NCBI RefSeq assembly: GCF_010093535.1 | Contig: NW_022985194.1 | Span: forward strand, 439,638-503,637 | Length of the DNA stretch: 64,000 nucleotides | Direction of reading: 5' to 3' | DNA from: Lindgomyces ingoldianus | Taxonomy: Eukaryota; Ascomycota; Dothideomycetes; Pleosporales; Lindgomycetaceae | Shown here: positions 1,075 through 45,081 of the stretch, piece after piece | How the letters are laid out: every line of letters begins with the position of its first letter | How positions within the stretch are numbered: the stretch's first letter is position 1 | Translations under genes and position numbers: made by a program | The notes under the pieces: model-generated | Seen by the model: the letters and a program-made list of their open reading frames with translations, nothing else | Told to the model about the DNA's origin: nothing | The model's database searches: none

Positions 1075-2630
1075 TGTGTGGCAATTACTAATAAGCAGCA
1101 ACAGGCTCTATGTTAATAGTATTAATGTTAGGGTCCTAGCTAAAGGCAGCTTAATGCAATTAAGTAGTTTAAGCAAGAGTACAACTATTGCATCTGTTAG
1201 TTAACAGTATTAGAGTCTCTTTTAGAGTAATATAGCTACCTTAACAGTAGCTCTGCTACTACCTGCACACATTAACAACAGGCACAGTAGCTTATTTTTA
1301 AAGCTGTTCTTTTTAACTAGCAGCAGCACCTTAAGAGCTCTAGCAGTAACGTCCCTAGCAATATTTTTATTAAGAAAGTAAAGGCTATCTAGCTGTAAAT
1401 ACCTAATTATGCTAACCTCTTTATACTAGAGTTTAGCTTAGGCTAGCTTACTAACTTTAAGTAACAGCATAATATTAAGCTTTATTAATACTAAGGTAAG
1501 GCTATGTTAGTGCTAGCTAGGGCTAAAGAGGAGATAAGGGCTATTAGAACACTATGTAGAGAATACACAGAGTAAGATATATTTAATATAGACAAAACAG
1601 GCCTATATTAGCAGTAAGCGCTATTATTAGAGCTTTTTACTAAAGCTTAACTTAGTAAAAAGAAGGATAAAAACTAAATATTAATTATATACTACTATAA
1701 CTTTACTAGCAGTAAGCGCTTTACTTTTTAAGCTATTAGGAAAGTAGCTAGACTATATACTTTATAATCTATTAACTTTAAAGCTCTTAGCATTTAATAG
1801 TTATTAAATCCTAAGGCGTAGATAATATATACTATTATAATAGATTAGCTATAGGCTTTTTATTAGTAGATAAGAGAGACTAGGTCTATTCTACTGCTAA
1901 TAGACAACTACAGCGCTTATATTCTTAGCGTTAATTTTAAACTACCTTTACTAAATATTTGCATTTAATAGCTACCTGCTAACTTAACTAGCGTCTACTA
2001 GCTACTTAATTAAGGTGTAATTAGTTAGTTTAAGCGCTTATATAAAAAGTAATAAATACGCTATATAGTTGCTAGCTATAAGCGTAGTGTAGATCTAGCA
2101 ACTTAAGTTAACCTTTACTATGCCTTACGCTAGGCCTCTTAAGCCTAGTATAATAACTTTTAGAGTAATATAATTTATTACTACTTCTGCTAAGCTAAGA
2201 TCTAGCCTTTATAAGAACTAATTTACCTGCCTAATTTAAAGAAGTAGTCTTAGCAGGAGCTAAAGGAGCTCTACTAGTAGGTGCAGCACATAGGCAGGAT
2301 TTAGAACACTATAAGCCTTAAAAACTTCCTAAATCTTATTAATAAAAATTATAAGCCTACTTAATTTAACTTTAATGTAGTAAATGTAATTATAATATAT
2401 AGCTAGCAGCTAGTTAAAGACAAATTAGATAATAAAAGGCCTTTTATATAAATACTTACCCCTACATAGGCAGAGCAGGCTCTTAAATTACTACTCTTAT
2501 ATTAAGAGCATACAAATTTAACAACTCCCTAGCAGATCAGAGCGCTCTAGCAGCTATATACTAAAGCAAAGGCTTAAAAGTCTAAGCAGTTTGTCTAGAG
2601 CACTCTAGATAGTTAGATTACGTAACCCTC
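1075..2630 (+). pseudogene. pogo-like (DDE_1) transposase relic
   Basis: One forward frame, full of TAG/TAA where Gln or Trp is expected, keeps the pogo/DDE_1 landmarks. There is a first catalytic-Asp block NIDKTGLY near 1585. A block with LLLIDNYSAY lies near 1891. Then comes a stretch matching the family's LPxNTTSxxQPLDQGVI pattern near 1970-2040, here LPANLTSVY and GVIS with RIP stops at the Gln positions. The frame stays consistent to about 2630, where the nested hAT element begins. The protein would have excised and integrated the outer element. It is inactive because of many stops. The N-terminal DNA-binding region could not be delimited. Confidence 0.8.
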
Positions 2631-2659
2631 TTGCTGTAACAATATTGCAATATAATAAT

Positions 2660-5600
2660 TAGAGTTGTTAATAATTAATCCTATTAATCTAGATTAATTA
2701 GACAGCTTAATTATTTAATCTGTTTACAATTAATCTAGGCCTAGCTGTTTTATTAATTAATTAATCTAAATCTAACAGATTAATTAGACAGATTAATAAA
2801 ATACTATTTTTATACTATTGCTTATAGGATAGATACTTAGTAATACTGTCTATAGTGTTAAGTTTCTAGGGACTAAATCTAGAGCTTTTATTAGCCTACT
2901 AAGTAAGACTAGCGTAATTTCTTAACTCCTTAAACCTTAACACTATAAGTGTCTCTATTATATACTGCAGCTATCTTTACTACCCTTACTATTAAATATC
3001 TATCTTTACAATGCTTAAATCTTTATTAGAGGCATAAACTATAACTTTTTTTAGGCCTTTAAACACTGCGTTAGTTAGGTTAACTTATAGAGCACTAACA
3101 TAAAGCCTGTAAGTAATGTTGTAATAGATGCTAATACTAATACTAACGTATACAGCAACCTAACACCTACGCCTACTCCTACCCTAGGCCTGCTAGCTAT
3201 TAATTTAAATGTAGCTTATAAGGGTATTATATAGACGCGCATTTTTACTTATTATAAGCCCCTATTTAAACCTAAGCGCAAGTTAGAGAGCTAGGTGTAG
3301 TAGTATAGTTATTAGGTGTATTACAGCCCCTTACAAACACTCTACTAGCTCTGCAAGTACTGCTACTGCTGCTGTACAATTAGCAGAGTCTATTAGGCCA
3401 GCATGTTAATGTTAGCTATTGCCTAGCATCTAGGGCAGGATATACTAGGGCACTAGCTTAAAAAAACAGGCGTTAAAACTAGCCCTAAGATCCTGCCTAG
3501 TTAACTTATAATAATAGCCTAGTTATAAGCGCAAGGCCTTTAGGTGTCTTAGGGCGTTATAAATATAATAGTAGACTTCTTTAATAAAGACGTGTTTTAA
3601 TATGCAGTGCTTAATTAAGTTATTACAGATAATTAAGCTTTATGTGTAATTAAGACTTTAAACTTCTAGGCTATAATATAAGCTACTAACCTGCTAGCTA
3701 ATAGATATCTCTAGGCTAGCTAGCAGAGCTTGCGCAACTGTATAATTGCTAAGTACGTTGCCTACATGCCTACTATAATTAATTACCTAAAGGCGTTGCA
3801 ATCTCTAATACATATCTTATTTAATAATTAAATGTTAACTAGCAGCAAGATAGCTATTACAGGTATATACATACACTATATTAACGCTGCTAGGGTCCTC
3901 TAGGACTACGTCCTTAGGCTTCTAAGCTTAATAGGCTTCTATATAAGTAATAATATTACCTTAGTTATTAATAATATGTTAAAAGCTTTTTAAATTACTA
4001 AGAATACACTTAGTTACTTTATTCTTAATAATGCTACTAATAATAACACTACTGTTAAAGCTTTAGCTGCCTTGTATAGCTTTAACTTACAGCACTAATA
4101 ACTATGTTACTTATGCTATATTATTAACCTAGAGGCCTAGAAATTACTATTTAGCAAAGACTATAACACCTTTTAAAACTCTAATGCTAATATCCCTAGT
4201 AAGAAGAAGTTTATAGAGAAGTAGTGTAAGAGAGGCCTTCTTAAAGTTTTATATAATGTTTTAGTATTAATATGTACGCTTTAAGCCTATTAACTTCTTT
4301 AACACTACTAGCTTAAGTATTAAGACTTTAGAGAGCTTATAATGCTTTAAAAGGTTATTAAGCCTATTAAGACTTAGTAGAACTTTTATTACTTATCTTT
4401 TAAAAAAGCTATTAAGCTCTGCAACTCTTTTAGAGACTACATTATATATAAAATTAATAAGTATAATTAAAAGCTAGCTAGGTGTTGCAATAATGTCTCT
4501 TACAAAAAGCTATGTTTTTTTATCTAAAAAAAAGGACTAACAACAAAAGACTAGGTAACAATTACAGAGTACATATAGCTACTGCTACTCTTTAAGGAAG
4601 TAACATCCTTCTTTAAAGAAAGAGGTAGGTTAAGTATGTTTAGAGCTATATAAAAAGTTCTCTTAATGTTTAACTAGCTAGTTAATACTATTAAGAATAT
4701 AAAAAAGTAACTTGCTAATGTTAATTTTAATAATTCTAACACTTTAAAGGACTATGTTTTAATTAATTACATAGTAGCTTTATTAAAGCTTTTAATGTAT
4801 TACGCTAAGCTAGCTAAGTCTCTAGCGTATTATATTATAGCCTAGTTACACTTAGCTTATAAGGATTACTTTAATAGTGCATAGCTAGTCCCTAAGAACT
4901 ACAACAGCGCCTTGTATAGTAACTACCCTTAGTAGGGGTGGTTAGACAAAGCCTACTAGGGGTTTTAGCTACTCTAGAAAGCCTATAAGGACTCTACGCA
5001 CGTCACCCCCCTAGATCTAATGCCCCCCCTAAAAAAGCCCTAGACATCTTACAGAGCTAGTTACGCTAATTTTATAAAAGCTGCCTACTAGCAAGTAGCA
5101 GAGACTACCTAATATAATAACAATAAGTTTAATTACTAAGTTAAGAAGCTCTTTCTAGATAAAAGCAACTTATTAGCTAAAAATCTATTAAAGTACTAAG
5201 TAACTAAGAGTAAGCACTATCCTACTCTATTAAGCTTTGCCTTTAACATACTAAGTATCCTAGTAGTAGCAGCTAACTGTAAGAGGACCTTCTTAGAGCT
5301 TAGAGACTTACTTAAAGTACAGAGACTATGTATAAAGCTAGATCTACTATTAGCTCTACAGAGTCTTAAAAGCTAGAAGAGATTAGGCCTTAAGCCTTAA
5401 AAACTAATTTCTACAAGGCCTATTATCCCTCTAAGCCACTTACTAAGCCAGCTAGCAACGTTGTTTAACATTAGTAACTTTAAATTTAATAGAGATTAAT
5501 TATGTAAAGGGTTAATTTACTATTTATATATATTATTAATCTAATCTGTCTAATTAATCTGCCTAGAGCTTATTAATCTGTCTAATTAATCCGCAGACGT

Positions 5601-5663
5601 AAAGTTATCAATTAATCAATCCACCGTCAGGTGGATTGATTGGATTGATTGTTAACAACTCTG
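2660..5663. mobile_element. hAT element nested in the pogo-type element
   Basis: The ends pair as inverted repeats (left TAGAGTTGTTAATAATTAAT, right CAGAGTTGTTAACAATCAAT on the reverse strand). They differ only by C-to-T type changes in the paired bases. The flanks give an 8-bp duplication, ATAATAAT at 2652-2659 and ATAACAAT at 5664-5671, again with a single C/T difference. An 8-bp target duplication plus a hAT-type transposase relic inside identifies the superfamily. The element is about 3.0 kb, typical for hAT, and lies inside the 3' end of the older pogo-type element. Short repeats built on ATTAATCTGTCTAATTAATC crowd both subterminal regions (2670-2800 and 5540-5640). Confidence 0.9.
2890..5402 (+). 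pseudogene. hAT transposase relic with C-terminal dimerisation domain
   Basis: A forward frame runs with many TAG/TAA codons. It contains a C..C-rich start near 3340-3400 resembling a zinc-finger region. A block reading LCYLCYIINLEA near 4100 corresponds to the hAT RCxxHxxNL segment. The clear C-terminal hAT dimerisation motif lies at about 5217-5400: YPTLLSFAFNILSILVVAAN followed by CKRTFLELRDLL, versus the family's YPxLSxxAxDxLSIPxxSxxxERxFS. The glutamate-arginine core is changed (ER to KR) in a way a RIP transition could explain. The gene is not functional. Confidence 0.82.
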
Positions 5664-5718
5664 ATAACAATATAATCCTTGTTCCAGAATTGTATCGCGC
5701 CATCGAGAGTTGACTGTA

Positions 5719-6210
5719 TCACTACAACCCGCGTTGTGTGGTAACCTACTATAGTAAATATTGTTGGATTGTACTATCAATAGAACGAGTGACTAACGAT
5801 AGGAGCTACCAAACATCAGGTCAATGATAGGTATACCTAGATAGCTGAACACCCAACTCACAAGCTATGGCCTAATTTCACCCAATGTGGTATAATGCCG
5901 CCAAAACAAATTCTGATATAGATCTTGTAGCAAAATTCTTTGTCCATTTCCCCATCCAAAAAGGAACAAATTACAAGCATACACACGGAATATCAATGTA
6001 GAAATGCAAGAAAGTCAGGCTTACCACCTTGTAAACAGTTACCTCCTCTATATCATGGAAGATATTCTGGGTAGGAATCATCCCAACTTAGTTGGTGCAT
6101 AGATTGTTAGTCTTGCAAGCACAAGTCCAGCCTACGAGTAGGCACGCATCTCAAACAGCTAGTATTACGCCCCAATCTTCACACAAGCACCTTCGGTTCT
6201 GACACGGAGT
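5719..6210. other. Intergenic, no gene seen
   Basis: Unique-looking sequence between the transposon and the FAD-oxidase remnant. No open frame with recognisable protein features was seen. Confidence 0.45.
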
Positions 6211-8109: not shown

Positions 8110-9541
8110 AGCAACGACACTTATACGGCCATCTAGTACTTCCTGACGACATTGCGAAAGAGGCCGCCGGCTTGTCCAAAGTGATGAATGAGGCCGAGAC
8201 GGCTTGCAAAGCGCTTTATGAACTGATTGGTAGTGCAAAAAACGTCCCTTGTGACATCAATCTCATTTCACGCGATCTCGAAGATTTGCACGCCATCTTA
8301 GGCACAATCGGAGCGCTTTTGAACGACGAGGGCTCTAAAGAAAGTATTGTTTGGGCTGCACTATTGGACAATCTGTCCAGCGTTGTCGACTCAAATTTGT
8401 CTGTGTTTGCGGACCTCACAACACGAATTCAGACACTAAAACCTGATGATGATAGCCCGACAAAGACTGGAAAGACTGGGAAGACCGGGAAAGAACCGTC
8501 GCGAGGCGATTCAACGAGTAACGAAGTGGAGACTCTTCGGCGCGTTTTGATGTCTAATAAGATGACATTAAATTTGGCAATATCCATGGCAAGCTAGTGA
8601 GTTATCCGCGTATTATTCAATAGACTACAGTAGTCTAATGCGCCGTCAGCTACCAGAATAATTGGGCGATGAATGCAATAGCAGAGTATCGTGCAGAGTT
8701 GAAGATTGTCTTACAGCTCCTCGAAGACGAAAAGGCTGCGCGGATTCCACCATCCCAACCTCACACATGCATTGATCGTGCTATCGTGAGCGAAGATCGC
8801 GGACTTACCCTGCGACGCTATTTTGATGATGATGGTTCACTCTTCTCGAAGACTACCCTGCAACCTCCGCCGAGCATGCAAGTCAGCACATATCTTGAAT
8901 CTCTTTACTTTGGAACCGAACAGACATTTATCACCGCAAGGACACATCTGGCTTTAAGGAAGTGCACTCAAGTCTTCATCAAAGGCATTCCTTCCATTAG
9001 GAACTCCATTACCCTCCGTGTATCGCCTGTCGATACGATCCTGACCATCAAAGATGAGGTACGGAAAAGAATTGAGCTTCCTAATGCCAACTTTCAGCTT
9101 GTATACTGCGGTCGGGTCCTCAACAAAACCAGCGCAACACTGGAAAGACATAAAGTGTTACATGATTCGACACTCATTTGTGTTTCGTTCCGGCCAGATG
9201 GTTACGAACCAGGCGCGTGGAGTGGACCTCGCATTTGCTTGGTGAGGATTAAGGATAAATCTGGAGTCGCTACAGACCTACATTTTGATACTGGTAGAGA
9301 TATTCTTGTTCAGGATGTTAAGCGCCGATACGCTGAAGAAGCCAATCACCATACCAACACCATACTTATCTATGACGGAAAGCCTTTATTGGAAGATGAC
9401 ATGCCGTTGACGCTAGAGAGGTTCACACGGAGCTACGGGGTCTGCGAGTTTCATGTCGTAGATAAGTTAAGAGTGCCAGATATTCCAACCATGGGTTTAC
9501 GGTCACTTCGCCCCTTTCGCAGGCCTAGATTTTGGGAATGA
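8110..9541 (+). CDS. Helical N-terminal region fused to two tandem ubiquitin-like domains
   Basis: Two exons, 8110-8596 and 8650-9541, join in frame across a 53-bp intron (GTGAGT..CTAAT..CAG) and give 458 residues plus stop. The first exon has helical segments (ETACKALYELI, DLEDLHAILGTI) like the fungal PigL_N/STAND N-terminal region, then a basic stretch repeating TGK. In exon 2, about 8962-9200 encodes a clear ubiquitin fold: VFIKGIP, SITLRVSPVDTILTIKDEVR, FQLVYCGRVL, STLICVSF. Val replaces Ile44, the Lys27-equivalent is kept, and there is no terminal Gly-Gly. A second, weaker ubiquitin-like unit follows at about 9226-9470 (ICLVRIKDKSG, ILVQDVKRRYAEEAN, ILIYDGKPLLEDD). The domains are probably non-conjugated interaction modules. 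The 5' end is unresolved, so this may be a decaying gene. Confidence 0.6.
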
Positions 9542-12994: not shown

Positions 12995-14324
12995 CAGTCG
13001 CCTACCAAAAGTCATTAGCCACCTAGCAATCCGAGCTCTGCAGGGGTATAGTCAACCTATTGGGGAAGGAGGTTACTTAGTTAATTGTTAACTAAATTTA
13101 AAGATTTTTATTTCTATACAAAGCTTATATACAGGCCTGTCTTTTAGTGCTGTGCTTAGTTAATAGTAAGTTAATCTACCTTTGTTTTAGACAACTTCCT
13201 TTATGCGCTTTAACAAACTAAGGATACACTTCCTATAATTAGCTAGTGTAATTTTTGCCTACTTCTTTTTAAGGATATCTACTATCTGCTTGCAAGTAGT
13301 AATATATTCTTGTTGCTTTAAGATGTAGAGCTTTATAATCTGCTAAAGGTTCTTAATTAAGTTTAAATTAGGACTTTGTAGAGGCTAATCTATCTGTATT
13401 ATGCTATAGTTATCTATATACTTTTAGGTAGCCTTTGTAGTGTGAATAGGTGCTCCATCCTGCATTTATATGCTAATACCGCGTTCCTCTGTAAGCTGCT
13501 AATAAAATGGGATACTAACATTATGTAAAATCTAGCAGTATTTGCTAGCATTATTGCGCTTACCTTCCTTGTTAATAAACAGCTCTAATTTAAAATTAAG
13601 AGAGATTACACTAAATATAGAGACTGTAGTTCTTCTAGACTTAAAGGTAGGCTTTAGGTACTAACTCTTATATGCTTTTCTATGCTGCTAACGTACATAT
13701 AGAGGTGTAGTGTCTAATCTAACTTTAAATGTTGCTTTATTATAAAAGGCTACGCAAGCTACGTTTTTTGCCTTGTTATATTAATAAGTTTAAGCAAATT
13801 AGAGTTACTTTTCTTTATATATAGCTAACAACTAAGGCTTGCGACGCAGGCAGAAGGCGTAGTACTTATGTTTTGTAAGGTATCTCCTTGCAGTACTAGT
13901 ATAAATGCAGCAGTAGGTCTTTAATAGTGTTGTAATAGTTTAGAGCGTAGTAAAGGGATTATTTACTGCCTAGCAAATTAAATGCCTCTTAGCGCGTTTG
14001 TTAAGCTTTAAAGGTTAGCCTGTACACAGAGCTTTTGTATAGGTAGGCAGGGGCTGCTTGCGCAGCCGGCAGATGTTGTATGTAACTGTCGACTTAGGAA
14101 TGCTAAGATGACGTGAGATTTTGCTAGCGCTCACGCTGTAGAGGTGGAATTGCTATATTGTATTAACAGATAATTTAGATAGCTCTTTACAAGAGGTTTT
14201 ATTTGCTTTTGTAACTATTAAAAAAGGTGGTAATTTGATTAAGTTACATTTAATTAAAATCTGACCATTGTGGGGTGGCCCAGACCTCTCGCTAAAGTGG
14301 CCAATGACTTTTGGTAGGCGACTG
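12995..14324. mobile_element. Nested Tc1/mariner element (1.33 kb)
   Basis: Inverted ends begin CAGTCGCCTACCAAAAGTCA and match over about 30 bp. They are flanked by TA at 12993-12994 and 14325-14326. Length, TA target and the transposase relic on the reverse strand all fit Tc1/mariner. It interrupts the older long-TIR element. Confidence 0.9.
13090..14230 (-). pseudogene. Tc1/mariner transposase relic
   Basis: Read on the reverse strand, the relic keeps a helix-turn-helix-like N-terminal block (SKISRHLSIPKSTVTYNICR) near 14050-14130. It has the second catalytic Asp block MQDGAPIHTT near 13450. It also has PLQSPNLNLIKNL near 13380, the counterpart of the family's WPxxSPDLNPIENLW, with Asp and Glu changed. 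Stops are mostly TAG/TAA at expected Gln/Trp positions, as RIP produces. It is non-functional. The ends of the frame are approximate. Confidence 0.8.
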
Positions 14325-14490: not shown

Positions 14491-15511
14491 CTTCTTTTAT
14501 AGCGTGACAGATTCCCCTCCCCACAACGCCAACGTTAAGCCTTTATTGCTCTAAATTTTTGTAGAATAGCCTTGTCTAAGCCTTAGAACCTCCCCCTAGC
14601 GCTAGGAAGTCATCATCAGCGTATGCGCTGCAGGACGCAACTTTATGCAGGGTCGCCATGTTGATTGGTGTAACGATTTGCATGAACCGTTCCATCTCGG
14701 GTTGCCCGACGAACCGATATCCGAAGGCTCCTCGTATCTGCTCCGACTCTGCCCTGGCCCCCTAAGTATTTAGTCGCACCTCTCCCCTTGACTAGCTCGA
14801 TAGTTTTCTGATATCCTTCCGTACAAGGCCTATAGGTGTTAATGGAATTCCCAGGTTTCTGAGTCCCCACGCACTCCCATATGCCTCTGAGTGGATTCAC
14901 ACCGCATTCGGACCCGTTGTCTTGCCTGTGCCGTTACAATTGGTCCCTCTGGCGGAAGCGATCACCATCGATCCTGGCTAATGCGAAGTGACCCTGCACG
15001 TCTCACCTCATACATCCGCGAGTGATTTACTGTAATATATGTGGCTGTGTGGATTGCACAAGCACTTGGAATATTGTTGAATCCGGCTCAGGATTGGGAG
15101 CAGTGCTCGGACTAGCCGACATGGCACTAGTTTAGTCAGCCTTGAAACCAGCTTTGACACAGCTATCCTAGAACTTTGAGATGTGGTTTAACGCGCCAAC
15201 GATACCTACATTTGTAACGTGGAGACATACCATCACGTCACCCTCGAGCGCCGAAGTTCACCATTGTTCTCTCCGCTGGCCGAACGAAAGACCTGATCAA
15301 GCCCACCACGTCCTTGTGCTTCTCGAGCCCACTATCGCTGATTCCTAGGCCAAGCAGCAGCCGAGAGCTAGGCTCAGCTCGTTGAAGGGGAACACAATGA
15401 GATAGGAGGGGTATAAGATAAGATAGAGTTGGGTGGCCCTGGAAATCGAAGCCTGCGCTTTGGCAAGCGGGTTGAGTGGCACTGGCAGAACGCCGTTGTT
15501 GCAAGCATATG
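14491..15511. other. Intergenic, no supported gene
   Basis: GC content is normal again between two transposons. Short reverse-strand frames near 14643-14900 and 15238-15504 have no recognisable features. Confidence 0.45.
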
Positions 15512-15519
15512 CGAAGGTG

Positions 15520-15699
15520 TTATCTCAGCTAGCTCAGCCGGCTGATGAGAGAACCGACAACGCACATACCACCATGCATACTGCTACTCCTAACGGAGTA
15601 TAACCCAGGGTTAGTGGTTTCAAACCCCTGCAACTAACGTTTTCTCTCATCAGCTGTCTGAGGGACTTTGGTGATTTTTTGTGTACACGACTGATTTCA
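15520..15699 (+). repeat. Left terminal and subterminal inverted repeats of the 10.34-kb element
   Basis: This contains the outer 21-bp repeat (15520-15540) and the 56-bp subterminal repeat (15644-15699, core GTCTGAGGGACTTTGGTGAT). The spacer of about 103 bp differs from that on the right, which carries two GC-rich hairpins. Confidence 0.85.
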
Positions 15700-16465
15700 A
15701 CTGCTTAAGGATGAAGACGCGATTTTAGATAGTACAATAGGTATATTATACACAGACTCTAAAAGTTGATACAACGCGCGAAACTCTAGTAAGAACATTA
15801 TAAGCATATTTTAAATAGGATCTAACAATGTCTAGGGCAATTTAAATCTATCCGCGCGCGTGACGCGACCTTTTCTACGACTAATTTCACGCGTTACTTT
15901 AAACCCCCCCCCCCTCTTATTATCCACGCCTATGTATTGCAAGGCACTTATATTTTAGGCGCTATTTGTCTTTGCTATTGCAAACTACCTCTAGCTTCTA
16001 GATCTGCTAATTTTGTCCTGTGCGTATAGTTCTATTGCGGTGGGCGAAACAGTACTAACGCTTGCGCAGTAAGCAGTTTAGACACTAAATATTGTAAGTA
16101 TCTTCCTACATATTGTCTATGTGTTTGTTTACGCACCTTTTAATGCGTACTGCTGATTATTTGCTGTAGTAGCTACCATGCGGACTAGAGGGCCAGGTTG
16201 GCGCGCAGGGAATCGGGGTTTAGGTAGGAGGCCAGCATGAGTACGGCTTGCGCCAAGTCTTCTAGCTGTCTGCTTAGGAGAGACCACTTATTTAGTGCTA
16301 GATAAGGACTATGCAGCGCTGAATTAAGTATACAGACTAGCTAGCGTAATGCTTTCTTGTGTTAAAGCCTGTCATACTCTAAGTGCTGATGCCCTGCGGG
16401 ATTTAGTATATAAGTGTTCTACAGAGTGTAACGTCTAGTATTAAACGCTATTGCTTACTTAGGCC

Positions 16466-19267
16466 ATGCAGAAGTTGTTAGGCAGTAGGGAGCCACACAA
16501 GCAGCAGGTGCGCGCTGTCTGTTAGCTTGTGTATAGCCTTAGGGATACAATTCTTGTAGCCTACACTAGCTTTAGAAAGAGCATTGTTTTGCATGCGTAT
16601 TCTGTGTTTACAGGCAACATTACGCTCTAGATTATACTACTGTTAAAGCTAGAAGATAAGCAGTTTAAAGCAATCTACCAGTATCCTAAAGCGCGTCTGT
16701 GTCTAGTTACTAAACAAATAAAGGATGCTAACCTAAAAATATTCTAGAAGATCTGGCAGCTTCTATACACTTATATTTTACTAGGTCTAGAGTAGGCTGC
16801 ATTGCCAGCGTTCTAACAGCTGTTCACTAACACTATATTCTATGCTTAGGTTAGGTTAGTAGCATTAGACAAGTGCTATGTTATATGACAGTAGAAAGAT
16901 TTCTAGAAAGAGTATTTGCAGTTCTACAAGCTCTAGCAGTGTTTGTCTCCTAACGCGATGTTCTTTGCTTGTACTGCTACGTTTGACAAGCAGACAGAAG
17001 AGGCGGTACGCTGTTTTAGTGGCTTTAGGCCAGAGGGTCCAGGGATGGGTAATAATCTGATAGGCAGCCTAGAGGTAATTAGGACGTGCGTAGATCGCCC
17101 TGAGATTGCGTACGCCATTATTCTAATTAATGATCGCAGTAAGAGCACGTATGCTTAGCTCTTGCGTATTGTTGATTGTGGGTTTAGTACTGCTAGTTCT
17201 CCTGGCGACCCAAAGCTTATCCTAAAGACGTGCGTGTTTATTAACAGTCGCACCTATATTGCTAACCTTACAGGGCTCCTCCAATCTTGTCTTGTGTCGG
17301 ATGGACACTACTCCATGGCAGATGCCAAGAAGGTAGTCCAGGCGTATACTAGTTGGGTTGCAGACGCGGACTAGCGGGAGATATATTAAAATTTTAAAGG
17401 CGCTAATGCCTCTATCTGGATTGTTGTCTGTACAACTGCGCTTAGGATAGGTATAGATATCTCTAGAATTAAGCGGGTATACTAATAGGACATCCTAATT
17501 ACCTGGGATATAAGCGATCTGATGCAGCAGTTTAGTTGTAGCGCGCGTGGTTGTGGTGAGACTGCAGTTGCTATATTGTTTGTCCCTTTCTATGCGTTTA
17601 ACTGTCTTAGCACTGATCTAGATGCAAGTGATGGACAGGCTAGCAGCTGGGTAAAGTGAAAGACAAAGGGGAGGCAACCTGCAAAGGCAAAGGATTGTTA
17701 TAAGATAAAGCCCTCCACATTAAGGTAGATGATGACTATAACGTTGCTAGATCAGGCATCTGCTAGTGGTAGTCAGACGCCTGTTACTCCTGCTGTAACA
17801 CCTCTGCCTAGGTCTACGCCCCTACACAATAAACCTAAATTGGAGGCTGCAGAAGAGGGGGTTAAGAGCACTTTAGCTAATTTGTGGAATCGTGTGGTCG
17901 CATTTTAGTATAACAGACGCAAAGGTAGACCCCCTAATTAGACAAATAAACAGCTAAACTAACAGGCTGGCATTAAGCCTAAGTGGCGGGACCTAATTAA
18001 CTCTAAGTGTTATTGTAGGCACTTGCTCTAGTATTTCTAAAATAACCTGTCTATACAATTAACGCGGCGACCTTTTCTAGAAAAGGTCGCCTGTTGCACA
18101 GGTTGCAATCTAGCACTTGTGCTATATTAGAGCGCCTCGCCTCCGCCTGCCAAAGAGACCGCGCTAACGCTAAAGAGCAAAGCTAGCCTTGCGTTGCAGC
18201 ATATCTAGAAGATATGTTAGGCATCTGCTCTTTAGTACTTTCTAAAGGTCTATAGTGTGTCTAAGGATAATGTTTTAGTCCTGCCTCTATCTTTAGTGTT
18301 TCTTCTATACCTAAACTAATAGAAGCTAGCAAGGCTTGTTGCTAGACAGAAGGATATTAAGAGTAACAGAGTTGCAGTGCTTATTAAGTCTAGCAGGTAT
18401 AGCACTAGTGGTGTACAGGATTGTCTGCTATTAGACTAGGAGTTTATAGAGTTGCATCTGGCATTTGTTAAGAGTAAGTTTAAGCGTATTATGCTTGCAG
18501 TACAGAGCGAGTTTTGCAAAAACGACGCGCTCCCTAGGACAGGCAACGTCTCTAGGTCGCTGGGTATACACGATGCTACTGGGGCCTTGTTAGGTAGTTG
18601 TATGCGAGATAACAGTCTAGCTGTGCAGGCTACGCAACACAGATATCGCCAGCGACAGAACTAGTTAGAGCGATATGGTCTGCCCCTTGAACTAGTTATA
18701 ATTAATGCGTTGTTTAAGTCTGCAGTGTTAACTATAGTACTAGAGTTGCTATTTAATAACAACCTTCCTCTACAGGACAATCTTTTGCCTAGTAATATTT
18801 CTAGTTATTAAGGCAGTTCTTCTACAGTTGTAGCACACCTCTCTAGTCTAAATAGTTTGTTCGCAGCAGCCTCTGCTGCGTTTAGCGTACCATACTCACC
18901 AGGTGTGGAGTTGTATATGTCGCCGAGGGACAGGCGACGCGCAGCTGTAATTGTAGGGAGCCCTATGCCAGCCCAGGTCCCACACACGCCAACTGGTAGT
19001 AGTTACCACCCGTTACCGCCTAGAATAGTCTTGTTGCCTCCTGTTGCATTAGATGAAATTGCTGTTAGCCTATGCGCTCCTAAGCCAGGTCGCAGAGGCA
19101 AACAGGCTGTGCGCCAGTCCTCCATGCCACATACACTAAGACGGTCAAGAACTCCCTGTACTCCAATTGCTGCAGTTTGTCGGAGCCTATTGCACGATGT
19201 AGATGCGTCACGCACTAATTCAGTAGCTAGTGCGGTGTCTCTAAGCAGATCAACACGCAAGCGTTAA
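16466..19267 (+). pseudogene. RecQ-like (DECH-type) DNA helicase relic
   Basis: A single frame runs from the ATG at 16466 to the stop at 19267, 934 codons, interrupted mainly by TAG/TAA. Helicase motifs appear in order. Walker-A-like AYTSFRKSIVLHAYSVF lies near 16555. LCLVTK and LLGLE (then a RIP stop) AALPAF follow. A motif II region reads LVALDKCY near 16862, where LVAIDECH is expected; the two changes are G-to-A and C-to-T transitions. Motif III reads FFACTATFDKQ. Motif VI reads QQFSCSARGCGETAV near 17527. This order resembles RecQ-like helicases found dispersed or near telomeres in fungi. The C-terminal 400 codons are Ser/Pro/Arg-rich. Dead in this copy. Confidence 0.75.
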
Positions 19268-20869
19268 AGGCGCCTGTTAGACAACAGGGCAGCTGATATA
19301 GGTAGTGTGCGCATTCATTGTAATGCAGACAAGCCGCGGTTAGACGGTTGGAAGCGTTGTTAAAACGTATTGTTAACTCTAACTGCGCGGAGCTTAGGGA
19401 TATATTAATAGGGGCGCAGGCAGTCTCTTCTAGAATACTAAACTAACTGTGCTTATTCTTGCTGCGGTTTAGGTGCGGAGTGTTAGCAATAGCTTTGCTT
19501 ATTTAAACTAGTTTCCTAGAGCGCTGTACGCTGGGGCAGACAGAGCAGCGCTTATAGGCGATCGTTGTTGTTGTTCTTGTAGCCGCCCTAGCGCATCCTC
19601 TCGTTTTGTATGAGGGGGTTCCCTGAAGGGGTCGCCTATAGTGTGGGGTGCGTGCGTTTGGGGTGTTAGGTTTTGTGCACAGTGCGGCTAGAGAAAGGGA
19701 TGCAATAAACAGGCTTTGTCCTTAACTTTAAGAAAGACACCCTGTTAACTAAACATCTCTTTACAGATAGAAAGCGCGTCGCAGAAGACCTGCAGGATAG
19801 AGGAAGGCTGCTAGGCCCACGTCTTTATATTGTTATGCTGGGCAAGTGCGTCGCGGGGTGGGTCAAGCCTAGAGATGAACTTAGTGGCAGATCTAAAGCC
19901 AGCTATAGTTCTGAGTGGGGATGGTAGGTATAGAGGGAAGGTTTAGTAGAGGGTCTTAGTAAGATAGACGTTAAATTTAAAGGTAGCTAGGAGGATTTAA
20001 TAGAGAAACTTAGCGCAGTCACAGGTATATATTGCGTGTCTGCGTATCTTCAGCGCATTGTGTGGAAGCCTAGGTGGGGCAACCTATAGGCAATCGTCGT
20101 TGTTGTCTTTAAAGGAGGGTATATAGGTGGCTGCAGCAGGTGTTGTTAATAATAAGGTTAGAACAAAGTATGCTAAGCACAGATATAATTCCTTAATTAG
20201 GCAGTTCTTCTAAAAATATGTGCTATATCTACGCGCTAGACCTATTAGCGCTCAGCTGCTTATATAAACGCACTATAAACACTTTCCTATACAACAAACA
20301 CACCTATATTAAATTATTCCTGCGTTAAATCTGCCCTATTTAGCTAACTAAGCAAAAGGATTAAACAATACAGACTATGCATGCCCCTTAGCTAGACAGC
20401 AACAGCTATCTGAACTAATGGGCACCCCCTAGGCCATCCTGCGCAAGCGCAGGACTTTCTAGACTCCGAAGAGCTGGTTGACTGAGAGAGATAGTTCCGC
20501 GCAATATGGCCTTTGGCATATAATGCTTCGCCGTCTGCTTGGAATCTTCCCGGGACCACAAGGATGCCCCTACTATAGTGCTCCACTAAGGAATGTTCAC
20601 ATTGTACGACTAAGGGGACTCGTTAATAGACACTACCCAGCTGTAAAAGAGCCTAAACCTAGCCCTTAGCCTTGCAACCTCAGGCACCATTAAGAACAAT
20701 CTAAATAAAAACTAAATAGACTAAGCTAGATGGCGGTTTTGCAGTAGGATTGTCTGAATTGTTTTTCCCTTAGTGCCTACTAATGAACTGGGTTTAGGAG
20801 GGACCCAGCCGAACAATTGGTAAACTAATTGTTGCAATTAGATGAACTAATTGTTATAGATGTCTTAAA

Positions 20870-20946
20870 TGCCCTCTAATTGCCCTCTGATTGCCCTCTA
20901 ATAGCCCTCTAATTGCCCTCTAATTGCCCTCTGATTGCCCACTGAT
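20870..20946. repeat. 11-bp tandem repeat, seven units
   Basis: Seven head-to-tail units of TGCCCTCTAAT, with single-base variants (TAAT/TGAT), fill exactly 77 bp. Confidence 0.9.
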
Positions 20947-21112
20947 ACAGCATTGCCAAAGCAATGTAGCGAACGTTGCATGTGCCTAGTTGCCTAATTG
21001 CTAGTACGCACTAGCACGCATGCAGTCCCTCCTAACTAGTATGCACTAGACTTTCTAGAACTCTGTTTTGACTTCGTGCCTGCCGATTGTTGCCAATTGT
21101 TGTCTAAGGTAG

Positions 21113-21184
21113 CCAGGTCCAGGTCCAGGTCCAGGTCTAGGTCCAGGTCTAGGTCCAGGTCCAGCGTCTAGGTCCAGCGTCCAG
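21113..21184. repeat. 6-bp (CCAGGT) tandem repeat
   Basis: About a dozen imperfect copies of CCAGGT/CTAGGT run head to tail. The CCAGGT-to-CTAGGT variants are C-to-T changes. Confidence 0.88.
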
Positions 21185-22703
21185 GAAGGAAACAGGAACA
21201 ACAAAAGGAGAGAAAGAGAAACAAGCATACAAAGCATAACAATAAGATACATAACTGTAAACAAAAAAAAAGAGAGACTTAATCTAGAACAGTTGTAGCC
21301 TAGAGTTGTATTGCAGTTAGTCTGAAAATATAAGGAGATTAGATACACTTATTAATACGCAACACTAGCAACTAAATCTAACACATGCGACTGTTTAAGG
21401 GAGGGCGGGGAGGCGATAGGCGATGGTTAGAGAGTGAATACAGTTAATTAAGGAGGGGTACGGCAAGGAGAGGTTTAAGGACACAGTTAAGCGAGAAGAG
21501 AGGGTTTAGAGGCGCGCGAAGGGATGGTTTAGTTAATTAAGAAGGGTGATGGAGAGAGGAAGAGTAGGACCATGTTACTGTAGAGTGCTTAGTACGGCCC
21601 AACGCATGGACAGAGGGGAGACTTAGCCAGTTAATAGAGGTGGACAAGCACCTGCAGGGCAAGGTGGAGGATAGAGTAACTATACAGTGTTTAGTACAGC
21701 TTAAATTAAAGAGGTAGGAGAAACTTAGCTAATTAAAGTAAAAGAGTTAGAGACAATTAAGGAGAGTTTAACTAAGGGGGAGGGGCCTATATATACCCCA
21801 GCTCTCGCCTCAGTGGCGAGAGCACCTGACTAGACTAGAGTTTCTGCCTAGCAGTGAAAGTACACGTCACAAGATTATTTAAAAGGATACAGAAGGCGCT
21901 AGCGTTTAACTAGCGCAAAAAATTATAACTTTTTAATTATTTTTTACTAATTACAACTAAAAATCGCCTGATTTAGAGGTAAAAGTAGGTAAAAATAAGT
22001 AAGATATAACGTATATAAGTAATTATAAGGCATTAGATTAACAATAAGCGGGCTAGGCAGCAGCAGTAAATAGAGGGAGGGGAGGGTCTTACTAGAGTAA
22101 ATGTATGTTGCACGTGATTAATTAATTAGTGTTGCAGAGTTAAACTACGTTAAACAGCAGGTAGTAAATATAAGCAGATAGTTTATAATAATTAAGACGC
22201 GCAGCAACATAACATTACTGTAATTAGGATAGCCCTAGCTCCTTTAATTTTTAACTAAGTCTCACCCTAACGTGGTTAAGCCTTTATACAACCTTATCTA
22301 CTGCTACTACGTCTCTAAATTATTTAAGTAAGATACAAGCATTTCTATAGACCTTTTAAAACTATTAAACTAATAGGCATTATTATAATTAGAGAACCTT
22401 TAGGAATAGTAAGCGCGTGAAACTGCAACAGTATGCTGGCAACTAGGTGATCTGTGGCTGGGAATTTGTCTTAATACATGCGATATGTGGATGGGCTGTG
22501 GGTTAGACAAGGGCGTACAAGCTAATACAAGGGGGCTAGAGAGCAGTCACGTACCTAACACTGCGCAGTTGTCGAAACTGGCGAGCAACTAACAGCGCAC
22601 AGCGTCTGATTAGCTGCACTGAGTAAACAGTGCTTTACAACGCTGTTATACATCACAGAAGTGCTTGCTGTAAGTATATATAAAATATAAATATATAATT
22701 GCT

Positions 22704-25499
22704 CTATTTATCCTTAAAGGCTCTGTTAAGACCCCTATTAAAATTACTATTAATTAGATTGTTAACTAAACCCCTAGGGTTGCTATAGGTTGTGCTCTTA
22801 ACTATTTCCGCAAATTCTGTCACATTAATATAACGCAACTCCTCTGCGCTAATGCTTGCTAGATTAGTTACATCTAGTGCTAGTATATAATTACTAGATA
22901 TAACATTACTAATGTTAAAGTCTGCAACCTTTAACGTTAACAACTTAATACCACCAGCAATAATATCAGGGCTTATAATAGGCTAAGGGAGCCCTCAGTT
23001 AATCTGACTAGTTAAGCGCTCACAGCGCCCACAACTTAGCAGATAAATAGCAAGGGCAAATGTCTCTAGCTTAACGTTGCGCCGCGTATGCTTGTTCTTG
23101 CTCTTCTCCCTAAAGGCGCCCTCTATTAGCGCACAGAGTTGCATATAGAACTGGCAAGACAGTGTAAGATGACTAAAGGTAAAGTTTACGTTGTAAGTCC
23201 TGTTCTTAAAGTGCTGCATGTTGAGCTTATACGCGCAGTTTACAAGCTTAAGCACAATATTAACTGCTTAGAAGGTGTCCGGCTTCCTGTGTACGTTAAC
23301 TAACCCAGAGGCAAGTATAGACTGCTGAAGCGTTGGAGTCGACACCCTATCTAAGACTAACCAGCGGAGGTGTAGCAGCTCAGTACTGTAGCGCTCCTGA
23401 CCAGATCTAAAGAAGAATACAGCTAATAGATTAATTAAGTAACAAATAATTCTAATATCACTAAACTTAACTGCATGCTGTAGAGTAAGAAACATCTTAA
23501 TCTCCTAAAGGAACTAACATGTTGTTGTCTAGTTGCCTTTAGAATTATTGCAGCCCTTTTACGCAGTAAGTGTAAAGACCTTCTTACGTATCTACTTAAG
23601 CAACTTAATGTACTGGTTAGGCAAGAGCTAACTAATGGCCTTATTATAGAGACCCCGCTAGTATTGCTAGACATCTGCTGCATGGATATCTGGCACCTGG
23701 CCTCAGAGATATCCACTGTTGCCTATCTCCTAGTAGAACAACGCAACTATTTAGGCGCCCTAGCTCAGATGTATCAGCGGCACAGCTATATAATACTTAA
23801 CATTGCCCTGATTGATACCAGCACGGTTTAAGCGCATAATATCATGTAGAAGATTGCTAGAAAAGTCTGTACCTTTAGGCGTATTAAAGTGCGTACGAAC
23901 AATCATGTAAGTAAGTGCCTAAAGGATATGAAAATACGCGGGCGGTCTAATCATCTAATCCCTCCTGTTGTATGGCTAGGACGCGCCGCGCTGCTCTTTC
24001 TTAAGACTGCGTATAAACTCAGCAGTTTTCTGGTCGCCCTATACTATCCACAGCCGCGTTTTAAAGCTTAGCTCTTCTAGATCTGCAGAAATATTTAACT
24101 GCTAGAGCTAAATATTATTATGCACTTTGTAGGTCTTATTAATAACGCCCTTGTTAAAGAATATTGCTTCTAGATGATTCACCTAGCTAGGTTCTTCGCA
24201 CAGCAGGACTTTAACAGCTGGCATTGACGGCAACTGGTCCTCTGAGCTAACAAAGACCCCTGATACAGCAGCACTGTGGATGGCAGCTACAGCGCGCGAC
24301 ATATGGCACAATGTAATTTGCTTGCTTATATAGTCCTAAATCATGCCAGGCGCCATACAGATCTAATCAGGCTGCAATGCTATGCTAAGATTAAACATAG
24401 ACTAGGTTAAACTATCCTTAGGGATCTATAGACATCTTATAATAAGCGCTGTCGTTAGGTTCTGCTAGATAGCTGTTGCAACGCCTACAGCGTGGTTGTA
24501 AGTCTAGTTAGTAAAGTTATAATTGTTATACATAATTATTAACTAAGGATTATGCGCAAGACCTAGCAGCCTAGCATTAGGTAAGACACAAGCTATATAA
24601 CATAATATTATAACTTATAAGCTTTTTGTATAGTCTGCTATTTTATTAACCTCCTAGTTTATAATCTTATATAAGTTATAAACACCTAAGCCTAACAACG
24701 TCTCTACAACGCGCTGTTTTGTACCACTACTATGCAAATATAGACCTAGTAGGCGGGCAAGGTAGTTGCATCTCTTCCAGGCCTGGCAACGTAAGATGAT
24801 AGAAGTAATTAGATACGCCTTACTATCCTGCAAACTCTTAGCCTTGCTGTAACTGCCCTAAGCACTCTGCTTATTCTATAAAAGTCCCTTAATAAACCTG
24901 CTCTAATTTAGAGCCTAATTAGCTATAATTAACCCTAACCTAGCAAAATTAACCTTATCTAGCCTAGAGGCTGTATTATACTAGTTAAAGAACTTCTGCC
25001 TAACAAGACTGTTAAGTTCTTTTATAAACGCAATAAAACTAGGGACACTAGTAGCCTTGTTATCTCCACTTAACGCTACATAAACGTTTAGCTGTTCTAG
25101 TGCTAATTAAAGAATTATCCTGCGTCTACTAGGCAGTAGGGCCTTTAACAACAGCAGGTCTTGCAAATACAACTTAACAAATTCACCTATTAGCATCCGC
25201 AGCTTATCTATTAACGCTAGGACCTACTCCAGTTTCCTTAATCTCAGGGTGTAAATAGGTGCGGACGACCAGACGCGCTAAGTAGACGCGCCTGCTACTT
25301 GTGGAGTTGCAAAGGGATAAGTTGTTAGAACTAGGGCCTAAGGCTTAGCAGCAACCACAAACAAAGGCAAGGAGGACATAGGAGGAGGTGACAATAGAGG
25401 TGATAATAGAGGAGGTAGTAGCTCATCTGCTAGAGGAAGATGAGAGGGTTGTGGACGCTGGCGCGGACGCGGGGTAGGACTAGTGGACTTATTGGCCAT
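22704..25499 (-). pseudogene. DUF6589-like protein relic (candidate transposase)
   Basis: One reverse-strand frame of 932 codons runs from the ATG at 25499 to the TAA at 22704; its stops are essentially all TAG/TAA. The start MANKSTSPTPRPRQRPQ is followed by a Pro-rich stretch. The middle reads AYLITSIILRCQAWKRCNYL, then LGLYLHSSGTKQRVVETLLG and INxEVNKIADYTKSL. Next come IMYNNYNFTN and LWIVQGDQKTAEFIRSLK. The pattern of a conserved helical block, a YDNFN-like motif and a GDQ motif is what I associate with Pfam DUF6589, a fungal family of unknown function. The C-terminal block NMQHFKNRTYNVNFTFSHL fits the family's end. Its place in a TIR element with a target duplication suggests it could be the mobilising enzyme. 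Family assignment is from memory. Confidence 0.6.
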
Positions 25500-25651
25500 T
25501 TTGTACAGTAAACAACGTGCAAAACGCGTAACAATTTAATAGATAATAGCAAGAAGTTGCGTAGCTGTTAGCCTAAAGTTTAGAGATGTTTAGAGAGGAG
25601 GAAGGATGCGTAAATATTAATACAATGCATCCTTATATAAAAAGCGAGCAC

Positions 25652-25863
25652 TGAAATTAGTTGTCTATACAATTAATTACTAAAGTCCCTCAGACGGCTG
25701 GGGAGAGAAGCTAAATCTAGCATCCTTATTGGCCAGAAAGATAGCGTGAGCGCCACCGGCGCGACTAGCATGGGTTTATGTTGACTAGCAAGGGTATCAG
25801 GGGCTCTGCCCCTGTCGGGGCTTCGCCCCTTCTCTCCCCAATCGGCTGAGCTAGCTGAGATAA
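25652..25863 (-). repeat. Right terminal and subterminal inverted repeats, with GC hairpins
   Basis: This contains the 56-bp subterminal repeat (25652-25707) and the outer 21-bp repeat (25843-25863), inverted relative to the left end. The spacer holds two adjacent GC-rich hairpins at about 25799-25830 (GGGGCTCTGCCCC and CGGGGCTTCGCCCCT) that are absent from the left end. Confidence 0.85.
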
Positions 25864-25871
25864 CGAAGGTG

Positions 25872-27045
25872 GAAAGGCTCGACATGTTTTAGTGACACAG
25901 CTGTCGTACGGTCAAACAACCAATAGCTCCTTACATGAGCGCAGCAATCTTTAGGGTTGTAGAGATGTGTTCCAGTTTGACCTCTGAGGGTCATGAGGAG
26001 TTTGGATCGTTCATGTTCGTGAGGAATGAGCACTAGCAGAGCCGTGATGGTGGCTATGCTTGGCAAGGCACTACACTACCTAGGATTGCATGCCGTCTTC
26101 TTGTTACCGGAAGCGATCCTTATATCTCTTCGCGCCGCCATCCATTCCAGACGATTATGGCAACCCTATAGCCGGAGCGGGTCGGCCGTCCTCCCTGCTA
26201 ATGTGATCGAATATTCGATCGCTTCTTTCGAGACATGATCTTGGCAAATCTTTACGCTTAAATGTAGTTGTCCATCTTGCTACTGATCTAGAAGCTTCGC
26301 CCTTGCGCAGTCGCAAATTACCTGGCTATATACAGTATTCACGCTTACCCTCCGGCCTCTCTATTAAATAGACATATAATAATATAAAATACTTAGTCAC
26401 CTGCACATAAACCATCCATAGAACCGTAAGCGATCCTCTGAGGTAACCAAATAGCTAACGTGCCCCACCAGGTTCTCACCAAAAATCATGAAAATCTCAG
26501 CACGATATCTCAACCACCGCTTAATAATAACTTCTAAAAACTCATATTTAAGCTTATGTAGAATTACAGGACTGTCTGCTAAATCTCGCAAGCTACTTGA
26601 GAGACACGTAGGAAATTATTTCCAAAGGGAGGGGTACTCTTACTCGCCGTCAGAGCTTGATACGTAGATTCTTCTTATTGGTCGCGAGTCGCACAAACGG
26701 GATGCCCGAGCCACAGCTATGCAGGTCGCAGGAGGTGGCGAGAATCCTGAAGTTTGGTCGTTTCGGTCAATAGAGGTAATTAGAATAGTCCAGAGAAAGC
26801 CCCAGCCACCCGGCCAATGATATACTTCAGCACCGAGCCGGAGCGTGTCGACTACCAGGTTTCTATTCGCTCTCATCGCCCAACTTCGATTCCAATTCCT
26901 TCTGGTCTCTTAGTCTCGACGGTTCGCCTCTGTGCGAGCAATACTACCCTTCTCGATCTGGATATTTCCCTGAACTCACACCCTTACTCATTCATGCCTG
27001 GACCACATTCCGACGCAATTCAGATCACGGCGGTCGAAAACAACC
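25872..27045. other. Intergenic, upstream of the HET gene
   Basis: No supported gene. Short frames near 25851-26238 and 26640-26876 show no motif. The last 300 bp are the presumed HET promoter and leader. Confidence 0.5.
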
Positions 27046-27840: not shown

Positions 27841-28873
27841 TCTGTGTTAAATAGGCTCTTTTAGCTAGCTGCTTATAGTATAAGCACTTAAGTAGCAAGA
27901 GTAAGAGTAGTGTACAGNNNNNNNNNNNNNNNNNNNNNNNNNNNNNNNNNNNNNNNNNNNNNNNNNNNNNNNNNNNNNNNNNNNNNNNNNNNNNNNNNNN
28001 NNNNNNNNNNNNNNNNNNNNNNNNNNNNNNNNNNNNNNNNNNNNNNNNNNNNNNNNNNNNNNNNNNNNNNNNNNNNNNNNNNNNNNNNNNNNNNNNNNNN
28101 NNNNNNNNNNNNNNNNNNNNNNNNNNNNNNNNNNNNNNNNNNNNNNNNNNNNNNNNNNNNNNNNNNNNNNNNNNNNNNNNNNNNNNNNNNNNNNNNNNNN
28201 NNNNNNNNNNNNNNNNNNNNNNNNNNNNNNNNNNNNNNNNNNNNNNNNNNNNNNNNNNNNNNNNNNNNNNNNNNNNNNNNNNNNNNNNNNNNNNNNNNNN
28301 NNNNNNNNNNNNNNNNNNNNNNNNNNNNNNNNNNNNNNNNNNNNNNNNNNNNNNNNNNNNNNNNNNNNNNNNNNNNNNNNNNNNNNNNNNNNNNNNNNNN
28401 NNNNNNNNNNNNNNNNNNNNNNNNNNNNNNNNNNNNNNNNNNCTAATAAGAGTTATAATATTGCTATAACTCTTAGGTTTTCTGCTGCCTTTTGTATAAG
28501 CAATTACTAGTAAGAGAGAATAGCAAATTATAACTTAAGGATAATATTAAGGGTAAAAAGTTAACTGTTTGCATAGGATCTAATACCCTAGCCCCCCCCC
28601 TCTCTAACGCGTTCTTGCTTATTGTACACAACAGAGTTTTTACTAATTGTTACTTAAAAACGCCCCCTTAAACGCCCTCCTAACGCTTGCCCATGGATGT
28701 CTAATTAGGTCCTATATTACTAGGAAAAATCGACTTTCTGAGACGTATTACAGACCGTAAGGGGACCTCTCTTAGTTGTACATTACGATTGACAGTCCTC
28801 TTACGTTTGTACGGCTCACGTGACCGTAACTATTCACTTTTCTGAGTCGTAGTACGTACGGTTGGAAGCGCTG
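27841..28873. mobile_element. hAT-family insertion remnant inside the HET gene, with gap
   Basis: AT-rich sequence surrounds the gap. The right end (about 28780-28873) ends GTACGTACGGTTGGAAGCGC followed by TG. It closely matches the right ends of the two elements at 53.3 and 55.4 kb, including the CTCACGTGACCGTAAC-type subterminal block. The matching left end is not visible before the gap. The insertion may therefore be composite or deleted. Confidence 0.6.
27918..28442. other. Assembly gap (525 N)
   Basis: An unbroken run of 525 N inside the insertion in the HET gene. Any frame drawn across it is meaningless. Confidence 0.99.
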
Positions 28874-30623
28874 TACGGGAACGCCATCTTCACCCTCTGT
28901 GCCGCAGATGGTCTAGATGCTAGAACTGGCTTACTCGCCCTGGACGAAGATCATCAGCCAGCGCAGTGGATCGCAAACTGCGCCGGCGGGGCTCACTTGC
29001 TACTTCATCGCCCCCCAGAGGTCAGCATTGAGGCATCTCAATGGAACGAGCGAGCGTGGACGTTCCAGGAGCGCCTCCTTTCAAAACGTTGCCTGATCTT
29101 CACAGGCGGGCGCGTCTACTTCCAGTGTCGCTCGACGGGGGTGTCGGAAGACATCTTCGCGGACCGCTGCGGCAAAGGCTGGTCCTTGGATTTGCTGCGC
29201 TCTCCACTCCAGATGCTGTCCCAGCTCAAGCTCAGAGCCGTGTGGTTCTACGCCCATTGTGTCTCTTTGTATACACTGCGAGAACTTTATGAACCATTCG
29301 ACATCCTCTCGGCATTCAGTGGCATGTGCAAGCTCATGGAATACACTATGCACTCGCCGTTCATTTTCGGTCTTCCCACATCTCACTTCGACTTCGCCCT
29401 CCTCTGGCAGCCGATTGGCCGATCGTCGAGACTCAACAAGCCAAAGCGTTCGGACGAACAGAAGTACAAGGACATGAAGTTTCCAAGCTGGTCATGGTGC
29501 GGATGGGAGAGCGACGGGATTAAATATGCTCCAGAGATGGTTGATGGCTGTCTGACTGACATCCGTGCATGGCTCTTGGACCACACATGGATCGACTGGC
29601 ACATAAGAGACGGCCATGGGACCCTCCGGCGCGTTTGGGACATGTCCTCGGCTAAAGAAGACGAAAGCACGAGCGTAAGGTGGAAAGGTTACAAGGTTCC
29701 CAGCAATGAGACTTTGGAGGACGATTCTGACCACGAATGGTCGCTGGTGCTATCGTCGCCGTCGCCAACGGACCATTCAGACGCAGTCACTCCAGCCAAC
29801 CGAATTCTCAGAGGGCCCCCCCCCCGTACCCACTCCAGTGATCCGAATGACTTCAAATACTGTATCAACTCCTAAACCTAAGCACATGAGAAAAGGAAAA
29901 AAGGGTAAACGAACGAAGCCAAGGGAAGAGAGCTACTCAGAGCGCTCTCACTGGGACGTCAAAAATTACGCGATCCACAGACACGATAATTATGGTCGCC
30001 TTCGCCAGGTGGGGGGGATGTCTGCCAGTTTAGACAAGCCGAGAGAGGATTTCACCTTGACTCTACCGGAGGATCCATACCACGTCCGCAAGACCTCGGT
30101 GAGTCACAGGACCGGCTCCTATCACGAATTTCCCGACCAGATCTTTTTGCAATTCTTCACTTGGCAGGCGTCGTTCCACGTCGTGCCCATCACGACGGAG
30201 ACTATGGACTCTGCAGGCCATGTCGGCGGCTGCCTCGGACCGGGGCTGCGACGCTGCCACATCATGGACCGGCGCGGAGATAAGTGCGGCTCCATCGTCG
30301 TCAACGCAGAGTGGCTCCTGAGGCAGCAGAGGGGCGGGGTTATCGAGAACAGCGCCATGAATGGCCCAGAAGACAAGACTGAGAAGACCGAATTCGAGTT
30401 CATTGCCATTTCGGAGGCAAAGGCCTTTACGAAGGAGGAGTTTCCAGACTGGACGCACTACATCCCCAAGGAGAGAGTCGAGTCGGAGTGGGATCTGTTC
30501 TTTGTGCTCCTCGTCGAGCACTTTCCTATCGAAGGGTTTTATCGCCGTGTTGCTCTCGGGAAGGTGTTCAAGGCTGCATTTGCTCTGTCGGATGATGAGT
30601 GGAAAGAGGTTATACTTGGATGA

Positions 30624-45021: not shown

Positions 45022-45081
45022 TTATGAGAGTGCGGGGCTCCAGATTCCAGGGCCCAGGGTCAGGCATGGTGATCTCGGATA

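Follow-up and report, generated by a model that had tools for sequence, protein, structure and literature searches.

A terminal inverted repeat transposon of Lindgomyces ingoldianus that pairs a DUF6589 gene, its predicted transposase, with a RecQ-family helicase

Structure of the element

The DNA analysed here (64,000 nucleotides, referred to as the window) comes from the ascomycete Lindgomyces ingoldianus and covers positions 439,638-503,637 of NW_022985194.1, a contig 850 kb long. It contains a transposon with terminal inverted repeats (TIRs) and complete ends at 15520-25863, about 10.3 kb long, which lies between two copies of CGAAGGTG and carries two broken genes. The minus-strand gene belongs to the family DUF6589 (PF20231) and is predicted to encode a DDE transposase; the plus-strand gene is a RecQ-family helicase, likely a conserved partner in transposition. 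This reading is held with high confidence. Both ends, the 8-bp target-site duplications (TSDs), empty sites, at least 13 copies, decay of the type left by repeat-induced point mutation (RIP), the family of each gene and the convergent arrangement that links them were all established. The features, by window position, are:

15512-15519: left target-site duplication CGAAGGTG; matches the right copy at 8/8 bases and occurs singly in two paralogous empty sites
15520-15540, plus strand: left TIR, 21 bp; 21/21 identical to the right end
15533-15662: left-end fold-back; outer block 15533-15553 inverted at 15642-15662, arms 90% complementary
15642-15699: left subterminal inverted repeat; partner 25652-25709, 58 nt, 81% complementary
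16172-19264, plus strand: relic RecQ-like helicase frame; ~1031 codons, 36 stops, putative start
19265-22706: middle region of ~3.44 kb separating the convergent frames; the scanned pieces gave no Pfam match
20855-20958, plus strand: 11-bp tandem repeat (variants of GCCCTCTAATT) inside the middle region, from the repeat search
22707-25502, minus strand: relic frame of 932 codons with 40 stops for DUF6589, the predicted DDE transposase; PF20231 match at 23088-24308
25652-25709: right subterminal inverted repeat; partner 15642-15699
25843-25863, minus strand: right TIR, 21 bp; inverted match to the left end
25864-25871: right target-site duplication CGAAGGTG; identical to the left copy

The perfect 21-bp TIRs and the perfect 8-bp target duplication described in the original prediction, which had been made from the letters of the window, were borne out at every base. 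It had also given frames of 934 and 932 codons; the length of the minus-strand frame stood, and that of the plus-strand frame was corrected to 1031 codons, over which (~1031) it was aligned in other copies.

The motif GAGAGAA recurs at both ends a few bases inside the TIRs, where the repeat search pairs 35 nt at 89%. Because a second inverted block (the 58-nt subterminal repeat) lies inside each end, each end is able to fold back on itself. Single-strand DNA folding gave a z score of -4.81 for the left end and -2.31 for the right end, where 6 shuffles folded as well or better. No further domain was matched by Pfam in the 3.4-kb middle region, scanned as 9 read-through pieces covering the three minus frames and the plus frames to ~20415, and Rfam returned 0 matches within the window at gathering scores.

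Gene families and decay

The DUF6589 assignment of the minus-strand gene is strong (E 4e-39; 134.9 bits against a curated cut-off of 27 bits). The plus-strand gene was assigned to the RecQ family by NCBIfam TIGR00614 (recQ_fam, E 4.2e-7) and PRK11057 (E 5.1e-8), with scores far below the full-length cut-offs, as expected of a degraded copy. The RecQ match spans residues 92-470 of the frame (~16445-17581); Pfam Helicase_C falls slightly under its cut-off (22.2 vs 23.5 bits), and a RecQ entry of the PDB was matched at E 4.4e-4. The profile matches foreseen for both frames were thus found.

A single open reading frame (ORF) of at least 100 aa overlaps the element (136 aa), so both frames are relics, as the mention of de-RIPped frames in the original prediction already implied. 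When the window copy was compared with five C16 and C7 pieces over an alignment of ~10.3 kb, 1626 differences were counted, comprising 1599 transitions and 27 transversions, and in 1576 of the transitions a C/G of the window corresponded to T/A in the compared copy. Since the differences are almost all transitions, little is likely to have distinguished the copies before RIP acted; among those compared, the window copy is the least hit. Stops occur in all 67 DUF6589 rows and in all 45 helicase rows (the best 45 of 70 candidates). The DUF6589 frame of the window has N at the first catalytic position and K at the E position, with the second D retained. Elsewhere in the window, AT-rich blocks with strong RIP indices (1001-6000, 13001-14000 and 45001-49000, where GC falls to 0.20 at 46-48 kb) are probably other decayed repeats.

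Copies, target-site duplications and empty sites

Allowing up to 3 mismatches, the TIR 21-mer was found in the 68.4-Mb genome at 102 forward and 95 reverse places; its reversed control gave 0 and 1. When M was set at position 19 and no mismatch was permitted, the counts were 52 (forward) and 38 (reverse), and those of the control 0 and 0. Pairing of the listed ends identified at least 13 genomic copies in which both ends are present (family A), a lower bound taken from part of the 197 TIR places. The genome lists are lower bounds in general, with 13 of 122 candidates scored in one copy list and 45 of 70 in the helicase search. Twelve family A copies are near unit length (10,296-10,950 bp), and in these the helicase and DUF6589 matches lie 3.43-3.49 kb apart. 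Small insertions, judged from split matches, were seen in the C13 and C30 copies. One further copy (C16:62120-105819) is stretched over 43.7 kb, apparently by later insertions, that is, nested mobile elements.

An exact 8-bp TSD flanks 13/13 family A copies, and all 13 duplications are different. In a second family, A2, two of the three copies have an exact 8-bp TSD and the third matches at 7/8 bases. The genome-wide TIR counts relative to the control, together with the exact TSDs of all family A copies, exclude a chance origin of the ends.

The window flanks were joined with a single TSD (300 bp) and compared with the genome, which returned 29 rows: 2 were the window's own halves, 21 spanned the join and 6 did not. 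No gap was present at the join in any of the 5 spanning rows that were aligned (5/5); the exact 8-mer occurred once in 2 of these, and 3 had altered bases. Because the paralogous sites run gapless through the join, the element must have jumped into an older repeat. The flanks at 15370-15519 and 25872-26021 are part of such a repeat, with 27 further genome rows at 71-84% identity. The claim of one complete mobile unit therefore holds by its ends, duplications and empty sites, and the further full-length copies with the same ends, different 8-bp duplications and empty sites anticipated in the original prediction were recovered by the genome search.

Helitrons lack TIRs and TSDs and encode a Rep/helicase protein, a definition from which the window element departs by its TIRs and 8-bp TSDs. 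Helitrons and subtelomeric RecQ genes are known helicase-bearing repeats (PMC12730594, PMC4522978), so the helicase could in principle mark a Helitron-like element that moves by rolling circle, or else a helicase repeat linked to telomeres. Such an origin is extremely improbable: besides the TIRs, the exact TSDs and the gapless empty sites, the internal position (440-504 kb of 850 kb) and the match of the helicase to RecQ families speak against it, and both candidates were dropped.

The same TIRs were also detected on short elements, 1.2-1.5 kb in length. An exact 8-bp TSD was present in 5 of the 6 listed (L082, L083, L084, L087 and L088), which is not a rate, as only pairs with at least 6/8 matching bases were listed. 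These five are apparently non-autonomous relatives, and their mobilisation probably took place in trans.

DUF6589 as a predicted transposase

The first homolog search with degraded copies yielded a single protein, and the unbroken protein P0001, followed by A3, opened up the family; each search scored ~8000 candidates sharing most words. Named relatives in the homolog tables come from Eremomyces, Clathrospora, Diatrype, Achaetomium, Daldinia and Kalaharituber, all of them fungal genera; the fungi with unbroken DUF6589 genes include Eremomyces bilateralis, Clathrospora elynae, Diatrype stigma and a Daldinia species. Eight unbroken relatives were scanned with Pfam (P0001 at E <= 1 and 7 longer relatives at E <= 0.1), and all were assigned to DUF6589, one of them with an additional weak zinc-finger match below cut-off.

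The DUF6589 profile had 0 matches in the PDB by sequence at E <= 1, and Foldseek alone found no significant match for the DUF6589 model. The structure model of an unbroken relative reached a pLDDT (predicted local distance difference test) of 85.6, and the best structural matches of the modelled relative were Hermes, the P element and ISCth4, with D, D and E conserved. The modelled relatives are predicted to have an RNase H-like core that carries a long helical insertion, like the hAT and P transposases. This fold claim is based on two models and on the Foldseek candidates after their re-alignment with VIA, and it is limited to folds present in the candidate lists. H230 is H in 46/46 proteins with a letter at that position. 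A C/DxxH signature has been described (PMC9587614); the motif as written is absent here, as P0001 has A three residues before H230.

By its modelled fold and the conserved D/D/E, DUF6589 is the likely transposase of the element. The models of unbroken relatives support the suggested transposase role and predict the RNase H-like fold that the original prediction proposed to look for. Alternatively, neither gene moves the element: the TIRs would be recognised by the transposase of another element, and DUF6589 would have a different function. The short elements that share the TIR and have exact 8-bp TSDs, which make mobilisation in trans likely, would agree with this, but the predicted fold, the D/D/E conservation and the tie of the gene pair to these TIRs leave it very unlikely. 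In the open-access papers searched, no report was found on DUF6589 as a transposase or on an 8-bp cut in a helicase-bearing element, and the strings matching PF20231 were, from titles and abstracts, taken as unrelated.

Linkage of the DUF6589 and helicase genes

Loci were built by merging rows within 3.5 kb, and a linkage distance of 25 kb was applied, both settings being chosen by the analyst. After merging, the genome contained 38 helicase loci and 52 DUF6589 loci. As many as 36/38 helicase loci have DUF6589 within 25 kb, against ~1.4 expected under random placement, so the linkage among copies that had been left for testing is clear. All but one of the 36 linked loci are convergent, the exception being C1:652790. 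As for the two remaining helicase loci, the C16 piece is convergent at 35 kb, and the one on C69 has no DUF6589 on its contig. Conversely, 11/52 DUF6589 loci have no helicase match within 25 kb.

Four groups could be distinguished by identity to the DUF6589 protein of the window: A (66-82%), A2 (~50%; L009 reaches 49.7% across 922 residues, and shorter pieces give 39-59%), B (34-44%) and C (27-29%, with two short pieces of L020 giving 33-38%). At 23/38 loci, in groups A, A2 and B, the helicase match is preceded by an exact TIR 650-996 bp upstream. Groups B and C comprise L013, L014, L016, L017, L019-L023 and L025-L028 on other contigs, mostly paired with helicases, and B shares the TIR 21-mer. 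Two PF20231 places outside the 52 loci, L012 (C25) and L018 (C45), show no match to the window protein and no helicase match on their contigs among the best 45 of 70 candidates; they are possibly more distant families.

Because a conserved, oriented pair recurs in four diverged groups, the helicase appears to belong to the transposition machinery, and on these genomic comparisons it is likely a partner and unlikely to be cargo. Capture as cargo without a role in transposition would fit the helicase's own frame on the opposite strand and the subtelomeric families that RecQ-like genes also form in fungi (PMC4522978). It is nevertheless improbable in view of the convergent pair within 25 kb at 35/38 helicase loci (36 with the C16 piece at 35 kb) and of its presence in groups whose transposases are ~50, 34-44 and 27-29% identical to that of the window. 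Of the "cargo or partner" initially proposed, the partner half is thus retained.

Relationship to known transposons

AcademH is reportedly the helicase lineage of the Academ superfamily, attributed to Kojima in 2020. It encodes a helicase and occurs in animals and fungi, including Ascomycota (PMC10799480, PMC10045372). Like the window element, it combines a DDE transposase (here predicted) and a helicase in one TIR element. Its TSD is described as 9 or 10 bp (PMC10045372), unlike the exactly 8 bp of 13/13 family A and 2/3 A2 copies, and this description sets it apart. The odds are about even that the element nonetheless belongs to the AcademH lineage, with DUF6589 being the Academ transposase in fungi and the 8-bp TSD a variation within the lineage. 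Besides the occurrence of AcademH in Ascomycota, this is favoured by fungal Academ copies that carry PF00270 and recQ_fam domains (PMC6416283), recQ_fam (TIGR00614) being matched by the window frame, and by variation of TSD length in other superfamilies, such as 5, 6, 7 or 8 bp in hAT (PMC12730594); the constant 8 bp in all 13 copies tells against it.

KolobokH elements are fungal DNA transposons with a RecQ helicase beside the transposase (PMC9587614), and they share a RecQ-family helicase with the window element. They are set apart, as described, by their 4-bp TTAA TSD (PMC9587614) as opposed to 8 bp, and by a helicase downstream of the transposase domain, whereas that of the window element is convergent on the opposite strand.

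The hAT elements resemble the window element in an 8-bp TSD and an RNase H-like core with a long helical insertion (here modelled). No hAT or P-element Pfam domain was matched in the 8 unbroken DUF6589 relatives, although a diverged domain could escape such a search; the hAT C-terminal dimerisation domain (PF05699) likewise had no match in P0001 or the 7 longer relatives at the thresholds given above. To our knowledge, no helicase partner exists in the hAT or P-element superfamilies. Zisupton, with an 8-bp TSD (PMC12730594), and KDZ occur in fungi as the window element does, but their partner gene is described as a TET/JBP dioxygenase instead of a helicase, and the sequence-profile search of the same 8 relatives gave no Pfam match to a KDZ-type transposase domain.

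The original claim that this content is absent from any named superfamily is not supported, since AcademH and KolobokH bear a helicase in fungi (PMC10045372, PMC10799480, PMC9587614). Given these lineages and the Academ copies with recQ_fam, DNA transposons with a helicase are already known from fungi, and "undescribed class" goes too far. What appears to be new, as far as the open-access papers searched show, is DUF6589 as a predicted transposase and an 8-bp cut in a helicase-bearing element. More tentatively, and with less than even probability, DUF6589 may form its own DDE superfamily, separate from Academ and Kolobok, with a hAT/P-like fold, a fixed 8-bp cut and an obligatory convergent RecQ partner kept through deep fungal divergence. 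Membership of DUF6589 in the family of the Academ transposase would make the element an AcademH that produces 8-bp TSDs; two distinct families would point to a superfamily of its own.

Proposed mechanism

The DUF6589 transposase would bind the TIRs and the subterminal inverted blocks and excise the element by cutting both ends. The target would then be captured and joined at an 8-bp stagger in the manner of hAT and P elements, and host repair would fill the 8-bp gaps. The helicase may open or remodel the fold-back ends or the complex, or aid repair of the donor break. Near-identical copies may have spread in a burst before being destroyed by RIP, and short elements with the same ends were likely mobilised in trans.

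Surroundings of the element

An ORF with a HET domain (28862-29875) lies 3 kb to the right of the element, with a run of 525 N (27918-28442) shortly before it. Together with the RIP-like decay and the fungal sources of the DUF6589 relatives, this HET-domain gene fits a filamentous ascomycete as the likely host. Ordinary genes in the window, recognised by their domains, encode a ubiquitin-like protein (8669-9541), a WLM metallopeptidase (40519-42051), a peroxidase (50213-50911) and a phosphoesterase (56673-58034).

Significance

With these results, the Pfam family of unknown function DUF6589 gains a concrete predicted job, that of a DDE transposase, and the 38 helicase loci of one genome show a RecQ helicase travelling with DUF6589 as a conserved partner. 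As exact ends, TSDs and empty sites are supplied, the question of why some cut-and-paste transposons keep a helicase becomes testable. If DUF6589 is the Academ transposase, the data would extend AcademH to 8-bp duplications. The pairing may also help to explain RecQ-like repeat genes in fungal genomes.
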